From Candidatus Kinetoplastibacterium blastocrithidii (ex Strigomonas culicis) (lineage in GTDB: Bacteria > Pseudomonadota > Gammaproteobacteria > Burkholderiales > Burkholderiaceae_B): a stretch of DNA of 64,000 nucleotides. The translations under genes were made by a program, and so were the position numbers. The notes under the pieces were generated by a model. That model had not been told where the DNA came from. It worked only from the letters and a program-made list of their open reading frames with translations, and searched no databases. This document shows positions 54,297 through 61,982 of this stretch, piece by piece. Position 1 is the first letter of the stretch; the number at the start of each line of letters is the position of its first letter. Location of the stretch: contig NC_019814.1 in the NCBI RefSeq assembly GCF_000319245.1, positions 682,001-746,000 of the forward strand, given 5' to 3'.

Positions 54297-55964
54297 CTAC
54301 CTTAGTGTTTTATATTTCAATCTTCTAGGATTTATATTCTTATTCTTAGACTTTTTATAACTTTCGTATTCACTATAGTTGCCGTTAAAAAATACGACTT
54401 CAGAATCACCTTCAAATGATATGATATTGGTAGCTATTCTATCTAAAAACCATCTATCATGGCTTATAACTAAAATGACTCCAGGAAATTCTAGCAATGC
54501 ATCCTCTAGAGCTCTAATAGTTTCAACATCAAGATCATTTGATGGCTCATCCAGAAGCAAAACATTGCCTCCTGATAGTAGTGTTTTAGCCAAGTGCAAA
54601 CGCCCTCGCTCTCCTCCGGACAAATCGCTAACAATCTTACTCTGATCCGTCCCTTTTAAATTAAATCTACTTAGATATGCTCTTGAAGATATAGATAATT
54701 TACCAATATTGATAATATCAGATCCATTTGAAATATTTTCAAAAACAGATCTATTATTAACTAGCGACTCTCTTGATTGGTCAACAAAAGCTATTTTTAC
54801 CGTTTTGCCAACTATAATTTTTCCCTTGTCTGGAGATTCAGAACCAATTATCATACGAAACAATGTAGACTTACCTGCTCCATTAGCACCAATAACACCT
54901 ACTATAGCACCTGGAAGAATATTGAAATTTAGATCATCTATTAAGAGCCTATCTTCATAAGCCTTGCTGACACCAACAAAATCAATTACATCTTTACCTA
55001 GCCTATCACCTGCCGGAATAAATATTTCCTGTGTTTCATTCCGTTTTTGGTATTCATATGAAGTTAATTCTTCATAATGATTCAATCTTGCTTTGGACTT
55101 GGATTGCCTACCTTTAGGATTTTTACCTATCCACTCTAACTCTTTTTTTATTGTGCGTAGACGAGCACTTTCTGAACCTTCCTCTGTTTTTAAACGAACT
55201 TCTTTTTGGGCAAGCCAAGAACTATAATTACCTTTCCATGGAATACCATAACCTCTATCTAGCTCTAGTATCCATTCAGCAACATTATCCAAAAAATAAC
55301 GATCATGCGTTACAGCAACAACCGTTCCTTTAAAGTCATGTAAGAAATGCTCTAGCCATTCTACACTTTCTGCATCTAAATGATTAGTAGGCTCATCTAA
55401 TAATAATATGTCTGGCTTAGATAACAACATTCTGCATAAAGCAACCCTTCTTTTTTCTCCACCTGATAAATTTTCAATTTTTGCATCCCAAGGTGGGATT
55501 CTTAAAGCATCAGCAGCGACTTCTATTTGCAACTCAGAATCATCAAATCCACTGGTAGATGCAGCTGAAATAATAGCCTCGAGCTCTGCTTGTTCAGATG
55601 CTAGTTTTTCAAAATCAGCATCTGCTTCAGCATATGCAGCATAAATATCTTCCAAACGTTTTTTTGCTCTTAGAACATCACTCATTCCTAATTCAACAGC
55701 TTCTCTAACCGTTAATTCATTATCTATAAACGGCTCTTGTGGAAGGTATCCTATCTTTAACCCTGGAAGAGCTAAAGCCTCTCCATCTATCTCTTTATCA
55801 ACACCAGCCATTATTTTTAATAATGATGATTTGCCAGAACCATTTAGACCAAGAACACCAATCTTAGCTCCTGGAAAAAAAGAAAGAGATATGTCTCTCA
55901 AAATATATTTATTTGGAGAGACAACTTTACTTACACGGTTCATGGTATATACGTATTTTGCCAT
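54297..55964 (-). CDS. ettA: Energy-dependent translational throttle protein EttA (ABC-F ATPase)
   Basis: EttA is a ribosome-associated ABC-F protein that gates entry into elongation by ATP/ADP state. The 555-residue protein has two ATPase domains: Walker A GVLGLNGSGKSSLLKI near residue 40 and GVIGANGAGKSTLFRM near 360, with signatures NLSGGEKRRVALC near 165 and DLSGGERGRLHLAK near 450. Between them lie the P-site tRNA-interaction linker and the Arm insertion after residue 95. It lacks membrane segments. The start is preceded by an AT-rich spacer of about 215 bases. Confidence 0.95.
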   Translation of the reverse strand: MAKYVYTMNRVSKVVSPNKYILRDISLSFFPGAKIGVLGLNGSGKSSLLKIMAGVDKEIDGEALALPGLKIGYLPQEPFIDNELTVREAVELGMSDVLRAKKRLEDIYAAYAEADADFEKLASEQAELEAIISAASTSGFDDSELQIEVAADALRIPPWDAKIENLSGGEKRRVALCRMLLSKPDILLLDEPTNHLDAESVEWLEHFLHDFKGTVVAVTHDRYFLDNVAEWILELDRGYGIPWKGNYSSWLAQKEVRLKTEEGSESARLRTIKKELEWIGKNPKGRQSKSKARLNHYEELTSYEYQKRNETQEIFIPAGDRLGKDVIDFVGVSKAYEDRLLIDDLNFNILPGAIVGVIGANGAGKSTLFRMIIGSESPDKGKIIVGKTVKIAFVDQSRESLVNNRSVFENISNGSDIINIGKLSISSRAYLSRFNLKGTDQSKIVSDLSGGERGRLHLAKTLLSGGNVLLLDEPSNDLDVETIRALEDALLEFPGVILVISHDRWFLDRIATNIISFEGDSEVVFFNGNYSEYESYKKSKNKNINPRRLKYKTLR

Positions 55965-56179: not shown

Positions 56180-56308
56180 CTAAGAACGTTTTACCTTTTC
56201 CAACATCTTAAAAACATTCTTTGGCAAATCCGCAAATAACCTTTTATATGCCTTTCCCAAACAACGACGCTCAAGAGTATTTCGTCTTGTACGTTTACGT
56301 TCTGCCAT
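56180..56308 (-). CDS. Uncharacterised 42-residue strongly basic protein
   Basis: This small open frame is not recognised. It has GGAG six bases ahead of an ATG (56308), a full stop codon, and 15 Lys/Arg residues against 4 acidic ones, starting MAERKRTRRNTLERRCLGKA. The C-terminal half (YKRLFADLPKNVFKMLEKV) looks helical. The composition suggests nucleic-acid or ribosome binding, but no known small ribosomal protein (S21, S22, L34, L36) fits. It is flanked by ettA on the minus strand and, divergently, by the broken uvrA. Arg codons are unusually frequent for this AT-rich region, which argues that it is under selection. Function is unknown. Confidence 0.6.
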   Translation of the reverse strand: MAERKRTRRNTLERRCLGKAYKRLFADLPKNVFKMLEKVKRS

Positions 56309-56464
56309 AATAAACTCCTAAAATATAAAATCCAAAATAAAATAATAGTGTTTTTAATTATAACCTGATTACAACAAAAACTCTTGCTAAATCATACAAA
56401 AATATAAATAGTGATATTGTAATATTCAAGTAATTTATTATACGGGGATAATTAATAACAAATT

Positions 56465-59400
56465 ATGAAATCTAACATAAAAATTACCGGAGCTAAACAA
56501 AACAATCTAAAGAATTTAAATTTAGAGATAGATCCCAATGATTTCACAATAGTTACTGGCGTATCTGGGTCAGGGAAAAGCTCTCTTGTATTCGATACTA
56601 TTTATGCAGAAGGACAACGTAAATATGTAGAAACATTTTCCCCATACTCAAGGCAATTTCTAAATCAGATGAATAAGCCTAATGTTAGAAACATAACCGG
56701 AACATTGCCTGCAATAGCAATATACCAGAAAAATCATATAAGGAATTCGTACTGTACTGTAGGTTCTCTTACAGAAATAAATGACTATCTAAAAATAATA
56801 TTTGCCAATAATTCTAATTTATTTTGCGAGAATTGCAATCAAATAGTAAAAAGAGATACAGCAAATTCCATATTGGAAGATCTAAATAAGAAATTAAAAA
56901 CAAGAAAAAACATTAAGGTTAACATAACGTTCCCAATAGTTATATCACCAAATATAAGAAAAGATATGCTCAGATATCTTTCAAACAAAGGATACCTGGA
57001 TATATATAAAGAGGAATCAATCAGCCATAATGAAACTGATGTTAGTAAGATTTTTATAATACAAGACAGAATAAATTTATCTAAAGAAAACCAAAGTCTC
57101 TGCCATGAAGCAATAGAAACAGCTATGCTCATGGGTAATGGCGAAGTAGTTATATATTATTGCCACAATAAAGAATCTGATGATAAAACACTAAGATACA
57201 ATAACAACCTTAAGTGTAATAATTGCAACTTAGAATACAATGATGTTACACCAAGTAATTTTTCCTTTAGTTCTCCACTAGTGGCTTGTAGTAACTGTAA
57301 TGGTTTTGGTGAGATATTAGAAATTGATATTGATCGTGTAATACCTGACAAGAATAAAGCCTTAAGAGACGGAGCTATAAAACCTTGGTAAACTAATACA
57401 TTTATAACATGCCAACATGATCTTGAGAATTATGCAAATATAGCCTCCATTCCGTTATCCACACCATGGAAAAAACTAACAAATGATCAAAAAAGATGGG
57501 TAATATATGGTGATTATGATGGAGAATATGCTGCAGACAAATGGTATGGAATAAAAAGATTCTTCTCTAATCTAGAGAAGAAGTCTTATAAAATGCATAT
57601 AAGAATTCTACTGTCCAAATATAAGAAATCTTCAGTTTGCATTAAATGTAACGGTAGCAGATTCAATAATAGTTCATTGCTATGGCGTATTGCAAATACA
57701 GAAAATAACTTGAATGAGCACTATGATTGTAGTAGGCCTATACCATATAAAAATAAAGATGCATTAAATATAGCAGATATATTGAAGATGTCAGTTAATG
57801 CAGTGTTGTAACTATTTCTTAAGTTTAAGAGAGATAAAATACTGATTAAGACAGATGATCAAGCAATACAAGAAATAGAAAACAGATTAGAGTTTTTAAG
57901 AAACATTGGACTTGGGTATCTAGCACTGAACCGTAAAGGGAAAAGCCTCTCTGGCGGTGAAATTCAAAGAATAAATCTAACTACTGCCTTAGGATCATCG
58001 CTAATAAACACCATGTTTGTATTTGATGAGCCCTCCAGTGGTCTACATTATAAAGATATAAATAAAGTAATAACATCTATAAAAAAACTTAATGATTACG
58101 GTAATTGCTTAATAGTTATAGAACACAACTTACAGTTAATATTATCTGCAGATAGAATATTGGAGCTAGGACCAGGATCTGGCATAGATGGAGGCAATAT
58201 AATCTTTGATGGAACACCTCATGAATTATATACGGCTGATACAATAACATCAAAGTATGCAAATAACAAACTGATATTTAAAAAAAAATACTCCATTAAG
58301 CCAATTAACTTTAACAAAAATATATTAACAATATCAAAAGCTTACGCGAATAACCTAAAAAACATTTCTATCAAAATACCACTCAACAGATTAGTATGTA
58401 TTACTGGAGTATCTGGCTCAGGGAAAACAACCCTTCTAAAAGAAATTATATATAACGGATTACATAACGTAAGAAATCCTGAATTGCACAGTGAAATATT
58501 CTTTGAAAAAATAGAAGGCCATGAAGTAGTAAATAATGTTAATTTAATTGACAACTCACCGATTACAAGAAGCACAAGATCTAATATCGCTAGCTATATT
58601 GGCGTATTCGAAACAATTAGAATTCTTTTCTCTCAAGCCTCATTATCTATAAAGAGAAATTATTCACCTAGCACGTTCAGTTTTAATAGTGGTCATGGAA
58701 GGTGTCCGACATGCAATGGAAGCGGAATAGAGCATGTAGAAATGCATTTCTTGTCAGATGTATATTTATGTTGCCAAGACTGCAATGGTAAACGCTTCAG
58801 AAAAGAAATATTAGAAGTTTATATAGAATTAAATAATAGGACAGCATCTATAGATCAAGTTCTTAACATGACCGTGATAGAATCTATTGATTTTTTTAAA
58901 GGCATCGAACTAATAACCAAAAAACTATCTTCTGTTGTTTCTATAGGGATAGGCTATCTAAAATTAGGACAAGCATTATCAACAATGTCTAATGGGGAAC
59001 TAAGACGAATAAAACTGATATCTAGTATCATAAATTCATCTAATAATAAACAACAAAAACAAAATAATGATTTGTTCTTAATAGATGAACCTACATTAGG
59101 ATTATATGCAAATGAAATATATATTCTAATAGAATTTTTACGTAATATTATAGATATGGGGCATTCTATAATATTAATAGAACATAATCTAGAAGTTATA
59201 AAGTCATCAGACTGGGTTATAGATTTATGACCTGAAGGCGGTGATAATGGAGGAAGAGTTATTGCTGAAAACTATCCAGAATCGCTAGATAAAAATAATT
59301 TATCTTATACAGGAAAAGCTCTAAATAATAGCAAAATAATCTGTTCCCACAGGGAATATAATACATCCTATAAAAAGAACTTAACAAATGAAAAATATAT

Positions 59401-61982
59401 AGAAATATATAATGCCAAAGAGAACAATCTACAAAATATCGATATCAAAATACCTTTGAATCAGTTTACTGTTATCACAGGAGTTTCTGGATCTGGAAAA
59501 TCTACACTTGCATTTGATATATTATTTAATGAAGGACAGAGGAGATATCTTCTTACCTTGAGCTCTCATGCAAAATCAATCATTCAGAACTCAAGAAAAA
59601 CCAACATTGGCAAAGTAATAAACCTACCTCCTACTATAGCAATAAAACAACATAAAGGGTTAGGAAATTACAAGTCAACAGTATCAAATATATCAGAAAT
59701 ACACAATTTCTTGAGACTTATCTATGCAAAACTTGGTGAACAACATTGTCATATATGCAAAACTTTTATAAGAACTCATACAGTTGATCAAATTACAGTA
59801 AAAATATTACAAGATAATTACAATCAAAACATCATAGTATTCTCACCAATAAGTATAAAAAACCTTAAAAATCATATAGAAAAAAAGGATACTACACCTT
59901 TCTTCTTAAATAATAAACTCATAACTCAACAAAAATTAAGAATACTAAATCTCTCTGATGATATTATTATAGAAAAACTAATAGGAAACATCATAGTTAA
60001 AAACGAAAAAGAAGAAGAACTCCGAGAATTAGTAAATATTGCAGTCAAAACTAGCGATGGTTTTATAAAAGTTATATCAATAAAAAACACAAATATTCAC
60101 GTAATTGATATCGAATCAATATCAGATATACTCATTCAGCAAAAAACTAATGAAAAATTTTTTAATGCAAAATTAGCATGTTTAAATTGCAATACAATAT
60201 TACCTACATTAGAACCACTATTGTTTTCTCATAACTCCAAAAATGGATGCTGTCCAATTTGCAAAGGAACTGGAATAAACATTACCAATAAAAACAATAA
60301 AGAATCTTCAGAAGATATATCTTTATGCAATAAATGTAACGGTAAAAGACTTAATGAAGAAGCATTATCGGTATACTGGAAAGGATACAATATAGCGGAT
60401 ATTCTATCTATGTCAGTTGATAGAGCTATTGATTTCTTTGAAAATGTACAAATCTCATCTAGAGAATCTTTGATTGCTAAAGATATTTTATTAGAAATTC
60501 TCAGCAAATTAAATTTTATGAAAAAAGTAGGCTTAGATTATTTAGAGCTTAATCAACCAGAGCCGACATTATCGGGAGGTGAGTGAATCACAACGAGTAC
60601 ATTTAGCAGCACAGTTAGGCTCTAATACCCAAGGAGCATGCTACATTCTAGATGAGCCAACAATTGGATTGCACCCTATAGATAATAAGAAACTTATAGA
60701 ATCACTTTCCTCTTTAAGAAATAATGGCAATACGATAGTAGTAGTTGAACATGACTATGAAATGATAAAAAATGCATCATACATAATTGATATGGGTCCT
60801 GGAGCCGGACTTCACAGTGGGAAAATTGTAGCACAAGGAAGCTTAAACGACATATTAGACTCTAAAGAATCAGTAATAGCTAAATCTCTAATAAAAAATA
60901 AAACAAAAACCATTTATAAAAAAAGAACAATACACAATAAATCAAAATTTATACAAATAAAAAATGCTAGTTTACATAACATCAATGGAGCATATGCTAA
61001 TTTTCCATTAAACTGCTTAAATGTTGTAACTGGCGTATCTAGATCTGGAAAATCTACACTCATACAAGAAATATTATTTAAAAATGTATATAGAATACTT
61101 GAAAACATTAATAATAAAAATTATATTAACTGTGAGTATATAGAAGGAATTTGCAATATCCATAGAATTATATCAATAGATCAAAGTCCAATAGGGAAAA
61201 CACCAAGATCATGTCCAGCAACCTAGACTGGTTTCTGGGATGGAATACGTAAGAAATTTGCAAATACTACAGGAGCAAAAATAAAAGGATGGAATCATTC
61301 AAGATTTTCCTTTCACTCAAAGGAAGGAAGATGCAAGGAATGTAATGGGCTTGGTACAAAAACAATAGAAATGAGTTTTATGCCTGATGTTACGATTGTA
61401 TGTGAATCTTGTAATGGATTAAGATTCAATAAAGAAACATTAATGATAGAATTCCTAAGTAAGAATATAGGTGAAACATTAATGATGGAAGTAGACCAAG
61501 CTATGGAACATTTTTCTAATTTTCCTTTAATATATAGACCTCTAAAATTTTTACATGACATAGGACTTGGGTACCTTTCTATCGGCCAATCATCTTCTAC
61601 ATTATCGGGTGGAGAATCTCAACGCGTTAAAATCGTGTCAGAACTCATACGAAATGATATGATAATTAATAAGGATTGCAAAAATATACAGCAACACACG
61701 TTATATGTTATGAATGAGCCAACTACTGGATTATCCATCTCCGATATAGAAAGCCTTGTGGCAATGCTACAAGAATTAATAAAATCTGGAAACTCTATCA
61801 TAGCCGTAGAGCATAATTTAGACTTTATTAATCAGGCTGACTGGATAGTTGATATGGGTCCTGGGGGAGGTTCTTGTGGCGGCAACATTGTATTTCAAGG
61901 TCAATTTAAATCACTATTAGATAAATCTGACAAATTAACATCAACACAAGAAGCTGTACAAAATTTTATATTGAAAAAATGA
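56465..61982 (+). pseudogene. Double-length UvrA-like protein (two fused UvrA halves), broken by five lesions
   Basis: This would encode about 1,840 residues made of two tandem UvrA-type halves, a form known from Burkholderiales and other bacteria; it may act in repair or damage-related processes rather than as the canonical UvrA. Four Walker A motifs are visible (near 56560, 58410, 59480 and 61025), with signatures such as LSGGEIQRINL and zinc-finger CxxC pairs. Lesions: in-frame TAA at 57389, TAA at 57809, TGA at 59228, a 4-base tandem duplication (GTGA) near 60579-60586 causing a frameshift, and TAG at 61224. The last domain also has Walker A changed to VSRSGKST and Walker B to NEPTTGL. 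It is surely inactive as one protein. No other uvrA is in the window. Confidence 0.93.

Follow-up and report, generated by a model that had tools for sequence, protein, structure and literature searches.

An open reading frame (ORF) of 42 codons in the genome of Candidatus Kinetoplastibacterium blastocrithidii is, with near certainty as judged from comparative sequence analysis, a real protein gene, and its product appears to define a new family of small, basic and lineage-specific proteins that is a member of none of the named families. The gene was analyzed within a stretch of 64,000 nucleotides of contig NC_019814.1 (hereafter, the window), and its family was found, in the genome samples searched here, only in Burkholderiales. 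For its function we favor, with a probability of about one half, an uncharacterized and abundant Burkholderiales-specific protein associated with RNA or with the ribosome, whose seat on the ribosome is a prediction.

The gene, its product and its signals

The ORF occupies exactly the coordinates reported in Table 1, which include the TAG stop codon, and starts with ATG; the bases directly before the start are TTTTAGGAGTTTATT. The 42 residues, the 15 lysines and arginines and the good ribosome-binding site that had been described from the bare sequence were all confirmed. Eight arginines and seven lysines are accompanied by three glutamates and one aspartate, giving a computed pI of 11.3 and a charge of about +10.5 (net charge is +10 to +12 in the three family members computed). 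The arginine content, already perceived as high in the sequence-only reading, is indeed 19%, in comparison with 4.6% over the 50 ORFs of at least 150 residues present in the window, a set including overlapping ORFs in which the maximum is 7.9%. Furthermore, when the gap of 500 bases that separates the ettA-like ABC-F gene from the divergent uvrA-like gene was dinucleotide-shuffled 2000 times, no ORF reached the lysine plus arginine share of 15/42.

Table 1. Features in and around the gap containing the 42-codon gene (window positions).
Feature	Position	Strand	Basis
ABC-F gene resembling ettA	54297..55964	-	name assigned by eye
CDS, 42-aa basic protein MAERKRTRRNTLERRCLGKAYKRLFADLPKNVFKMLEKVKRS	56180..56308	-	ORF, homologues, purifying selection, ribosomal-protein-like codon usage
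Shine-Dalgarno AGGAG, six bases ahead of ATG	56315..56319	-	sequence; SD-like motif in 114/119 loci
Sigma-70-like site TTGAAT-17-TATATT, weak	56401..56429	-	4 sites found vs 5.5 expected in shuffles
Long uvrA-like gene, divergent, broken; neighbor, not judged a functional part	56465..61967	+	tblastn; the end is that of the last match, not of the gene

The synonymous bias expected of a coding sequence is present in the sister genomes: pN/pS is 0.25 across eight genomes of the same genus and 0.19 when pooled over 108 distinct 42-codon coding sequences (Nei-Gojobori style), whereas the value is 0.66 and 1.32 when the same-genus DNA is read in the other two frames. Paired with individual relatives of its genus, the window copy gives values between 0.04 and 0.38. 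In comparisons with other genera, synonymous sites have reached or passed saturation in five of the eight pairs listed, and the nonsynonymous proportions over all eight are 0.12–0.26. The signals for initiation are conserved as well, since a Shine-Dalgarno-like motif shortly precedes the start in nearly all of the 119 distinct loci compared (Table 1), which begin with ATG (114) or GTG (5) when the start is called as the start codon closest to the first position of the model.

The codons of the gene are those typical of high expression. Among 80 named loci (the best 80 of 242), CGT accounts for 36% and CGG for 1% of its arginine codons, in comparison with 9 and 14% in the pieces of uvrA from 71 of these loci. 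A codon test was performed in nine genomes, each with its own cluster of ribosomal-protein and elongation-factor genes, found by homology to that of the window genome; the background consisted of ORF calls of at least 150 residues from random stretches, or from the window itself for the window genome. In eight of them the codon score exceeds 99–100% of the background segments of 41 codons and is equal to or above that of the median ribosomal-protein segment, the exception being genome G057 (63 and 17%, respectively). With the amino acid sequence fixed and codons drawn at random, the probability under the background is 0.00005–0.003 in eight genomes, as against 0.19 in G057; in all nine, the gene falls within the ribosomal-protein distribution. 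These genomes are related and, therefore, a combined probability would not be meaningful. Protein comparison indicates that the gene also evolves at about the pace of ribosomal proteins: its identity to six other family genomes is 79–83%, with medians of 83–85% for ribosomal proteins and elongation factors, and the corresponding values against G057 are 74 and 68% (this comparison covered seven genomes, with G104 left out). We infer that the gene is strongly expressed and its protein abundant.

In many relatives the gene stands alone. An intrinsic terminator is found no more than 120 nt past the stop codon in 44 of the 79 named loci scanned (from the best 80 of 242, the 80th having too little downstream sequence) and in none of 395 mononucleotide shuffles, so that in those relatives transcription can end right after the gene; downstream of the AT-rich window copy no terminator was detected. 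The best sigma-70-like scores over 127 upstream regions are modestly higher than in mononucleotide shuffles (mean 8.1 vs 6.9), and the site in the window is not significant (Table 1). Control by the SOS response was rejected, LexA-like boxes being present in only 2 of 128 upstream regions.

Distribution in Burkholderiales and the neighboring uvrA

When 61 genomes, among them that of the window, were searched at the protein level in all six frames, strong matches were obtained in 38 of them (E ≤ 1.1e-13; identity of 68–98% in the relatives), three further genomes with weak matches only being left out of the count. These comprise all eight genomes of the genus, whose members have reduced genomes of about 0.7–0.8 Mb and in which the gene is always intact, 28 of 29 other members of the family and 2 of 24 genomes from other families of the order. 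The resulting total of 36/37 in the family, obtained from the homologue search that had been proposed for this ORF, speaks for a gene. In a larger sample, 223 of 250 genomes of the family contain a match at E ≤ 1e-5, with one match each among the rows listed, and 41 of 43 genera have a hit; the two without are apparently g55 and g12, which provide 12 and 2, respectively, of the 20 misses listed (7 further misses are not itemized). The named hits, taken from the best 80 of 242 loci confirmed from 353 candidate stretches, belong mostly to Alcaligenaceae, such as Bordetella, Achromobacter, Castellaniella, Pusillimonas, Advenella and Pigmentiphaga, with a few others, e.g., Lautropia and Parvibium. 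A locus in a record titled Bordetella parapertussis (a MAG, L065) encodes a version that does not resemble the ones in the other Bordetella loci, and it contains no uvrA; the title may be wrong.

At the level of the order, strong matches (E ≤ 1.2e-20) occur in 38 of 349 genomes, two more with a weak match not being counted, and are distributed over seven families, namely that of the window genome and six more families of Burkholderiales; the suggestion that the protein is specific to the immediate group of the symbiont was, in the light of these data, too narrow. Among these families, f22 has the gene in 25 of 28 genomes and f20 in 13 of the 101 sampled. The f20 version is about 50 residues long, with a similar core (NRTRRSTLERRCISKSAKRLF in L128) and a different C-terminus (loci L127–L131 and L155–L167), such as AECHQRNRKGLG, and its occurrence in 13/101 genomes would reflect patchy loss or transfer. 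Samples of the class (369 genomes) and of the phylum (200 genomes) gave nothing credible beyond the window genome, with weak fragments in five and two genomes (E of 0.0017 or worse), and a candidate in G061, from genus g55 (E 0.0026), was dropped as it was not recovered by a broader profile. Since the gene is missing from two genera of the family and from the majority of the remaining Burkholderiales (in the order-wide sample of 349 genomes, 311 are without a strong match), the protein is not a universal part of the ribosome. An origin as mobile element, or as phage or plasmid cargo, was rejected: phage, plasmid and viral-contig records contained no relative, none of 253 candidate stretches being confirmed.

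A common neighbor is a long uvrA gene, which in 66 of the 80 named loci is located upstream in divergent orientation, at a distance of up to 3.6 kb (within 700 bases in 23 of them). Of the remaining loci, six have uvrA in another orientation and eight do not contain it, a count to be read considering that some loci end near the small gene. In six Achromobacter loci (L087, L091, L106, L107, L116 and L118), uvrA lies on the same strand about 2.7–2.9 kb downstream, as if the segment with the small gene had been inverted. The association does not hold outside the family: among 19 loci of other families (L034, L037 and L127–L143), in which the neighbors differ, uvrA is unmatched in 18, and in L138 the match is confined to an internal piece located about 3.8 kb downstream. 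Conversely, the long uvrA is matched in all six genomes tested of g55 and g12, with open frames of 1889–1986 residues in five of them and 676 in G018, and in the 1.5 kb on either side of it no match to the small-gene profile better than E 0.7 was found. In the window, uvrA, of the tandem UvrA type, is interrupted by in-frame stops at 57389–57391, 57809–57811 and 59228–59230 and by a change of frame near 60583. In seven same-genus relatives no stop is present in the aligned part (more than 1000 residues in five, fewer than 470 in two), which suggests a recent decay in this genome, unless the sequence is in error. A partnership of the two genes was consequently rejected, because each occurs without the other and, in the window, an intact small gene adjoins a broken uvrA.

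Known families and predicted structure

Library searches left the protein without a name. In Pfam, the window protein hit one model, with E 0.2 and well short of the cut-off, and when five relatives were added the hits were two models at E 0.14–0.2, at the level of noise; NCBIfam gave no match, PHROGs only noise (for a single relative, one PHROG with an E of 0.2), and the PDB sequences only two acyl-CoA hydrolase chains at E 0.92, and none with the family profile. No profile of a ribosomal protein and no chain of a solved ribosome was matched in Pfam, NCBIfam and PDB, and Foldseek returned no PDB hits for the AlphaFold2 model. The sequence-only reading was thus right in calling it an orphan of no recognized family, insofar as no library profile matches it. 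A search of the openly licensed literature by title and abstract opening found no publication on the protein; 80 unannotated genes have reportedly been predicted in Bordetella (PMC3098052).

The conserved core consists of an Arg/Lys tail, the motif TLERRCLxKxxKRLF, a short turn and the motif PKxVFKMLEKxKR. AlphaFold2 yields a weak model (mean pLDDT 68.8, pTM 0.32), which places helices, with modest confidence, at residues 2–9, 12–17, 19–25 and 30–41; the last one is significantly amphipathic (0.5% of shuffles reach its moment), whereas helices 12–17 and 19–25 are not. Cys16 is replaced by serine in two f20 members (L165 and L166) and, therefore, is unlikely to be a catalytic residue or a metal ligand throughout the family. 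The masses predicted for the protein without its methionine are about 4975 Da in Achromobacter and 4961 Da in several Bordetella; nothing usable was found in a literature search for MALDI-TOF peaks near these values.

Small, very basic proteins of fewer than 60 residues, each limited to one lineage, are known among the components of bacterial ribosomes, namely bTHX, bS22/Sra and bL37. The 42-residue protein resembles them in size, charge and confinement to one lineage, and differs in that it has no credible match in Pfam, NCBIfam or PDB and its place on the ribosome is only predicted. Similarly small and basic are ArfA, a ribosome-related rescue factor whose gene contains a terminator or cleavage hairpin inside the ORF that gives rise to a non-stop message, and RMF, a ribosome-bound hibernation factor of about 55 residues; neither of their Pfam profiles is matched by the window protein or by five relatives. 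DUF1127 proteins, rich in arginine, have a different motif, and their profile is absent among the Pfam matches listed up to E 10 for the same six proteins. They share with our protein the small size, which is reportedly often below 50 residues (PMC12501420).

Possible roles and their significance

In the reading that we favor, the Arg/Lys-rich N-terminal tail (AERKRTRR) and two or three short helices, corresponding to the two core motifs, would bind structured RNA, most likely rRNA, and the protein would act either as an accessory component of the ribosome or as a constitutive factor that associates with ribosomes or helps to assemble them. An abundant RNA-binding protein of translation best explains, taken together, that the gene is found almost throughout the family, is independent of its neighbors, has the codon usage and rate of ribosomal proteins and encodes a product of strong positive charge, and the gene may have been kept during the shrinkage of the symbiont genome to 0.8 Mb because translation was kept. 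The ribosome or nucleic-acid association anticipated from the sequence alone gains from the charge and from the codon usage and rate, which support it indirectly, the association itself being predicted. Several observations count against this explanation, namely the pN/pS of 0.38 that the window copy gives with its most distant relative in the genus, the weak structural model with no Foldseek hit, the missing codon signal in G057, the gaps in the distribution and the terminator not detected behind the window copy. A bolder version, in which the ribosome of Alcaligenaceae (Bordetella, Achromobacter and others), and also that of several further families of Burkholderiales, contains an undescribed bona fide stoichiometric subunit, is only tentatively entertained, with the odds clearly against it.

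Charge and an Arg-rich tail would suit any nucleic acid, and high codon adaptation is also compatible with an abundant nucleoid-associated protein that binds DNA and that was perhaps once tied to DNA repair through uvrA, as its frequent divergent position would suggest. We consider this unlikely, since the two genes are uncoupled in other families and in g55 and g12, uvrA has decayed next to an intact small gene in the window, and LexA-like boxes are rare. The amphipathic last helix could instead serve protein-protein contacts in a small regulator or adaptor with a target such as RNA polymerase, a sensor kinase or an RNase; DUF1127 proteins are reported to act in this manner on the sensor kinase PhoR (PMC12501420). 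However, no DUF1127 match was listed and codon usage at the level of ribosomal proteins would be unusual for a regulator, making this explanation quite improbable.

Still lower is the probability that we assign to a factor for ribosome rescue or hibernation. In size and charge the protein is comparable to ArfA and RMF; nevertheless, Pfam offers no match, the codon usage argues for synthesis during growth and, with regard to ArfA, a terminator follows the stop codon in more than half of the named loci, in a scan that covered the 120 nt past the stop, whereas the hallmark of ArfA is one inside the ORF. Finally, that no protein gene exists, the ORF being due to chance or embedded in a conserved small RNA, is scarcely credible. 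The length by itself is not rare, since an ORF of at least 42 residues arose in 627 of the 2000 shuffled versions of the gap, and in Bordetella the conserved small RNA S17 reportedly overlaps a small ORF, a different one of 32 residues (PMC11722255); however, change is far more frequent at synonymous than at nonsynonymous sites, start codon and Shine-Dalgarno are conserved, and Rfam contains no structural RNA match at E ≤ 1.

The 42-residue protein should belong to a core function of the cell, because it is retained across most of the family and in all eight of the minimal symbionts sampled, with the codon usage of ribosomal proteins. A core-looking protein of the family to which Bordetella and Achromobacter belong is, nonetheless, covered by no Pfam, NCBIfam or PHROGs profile. 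Its predicted masses are within the reach of routine MALDI-TOF spectra. If it does reside on the ribosome, translation in this lineage would have a component that, as far as our searches show, is so far undescribed.
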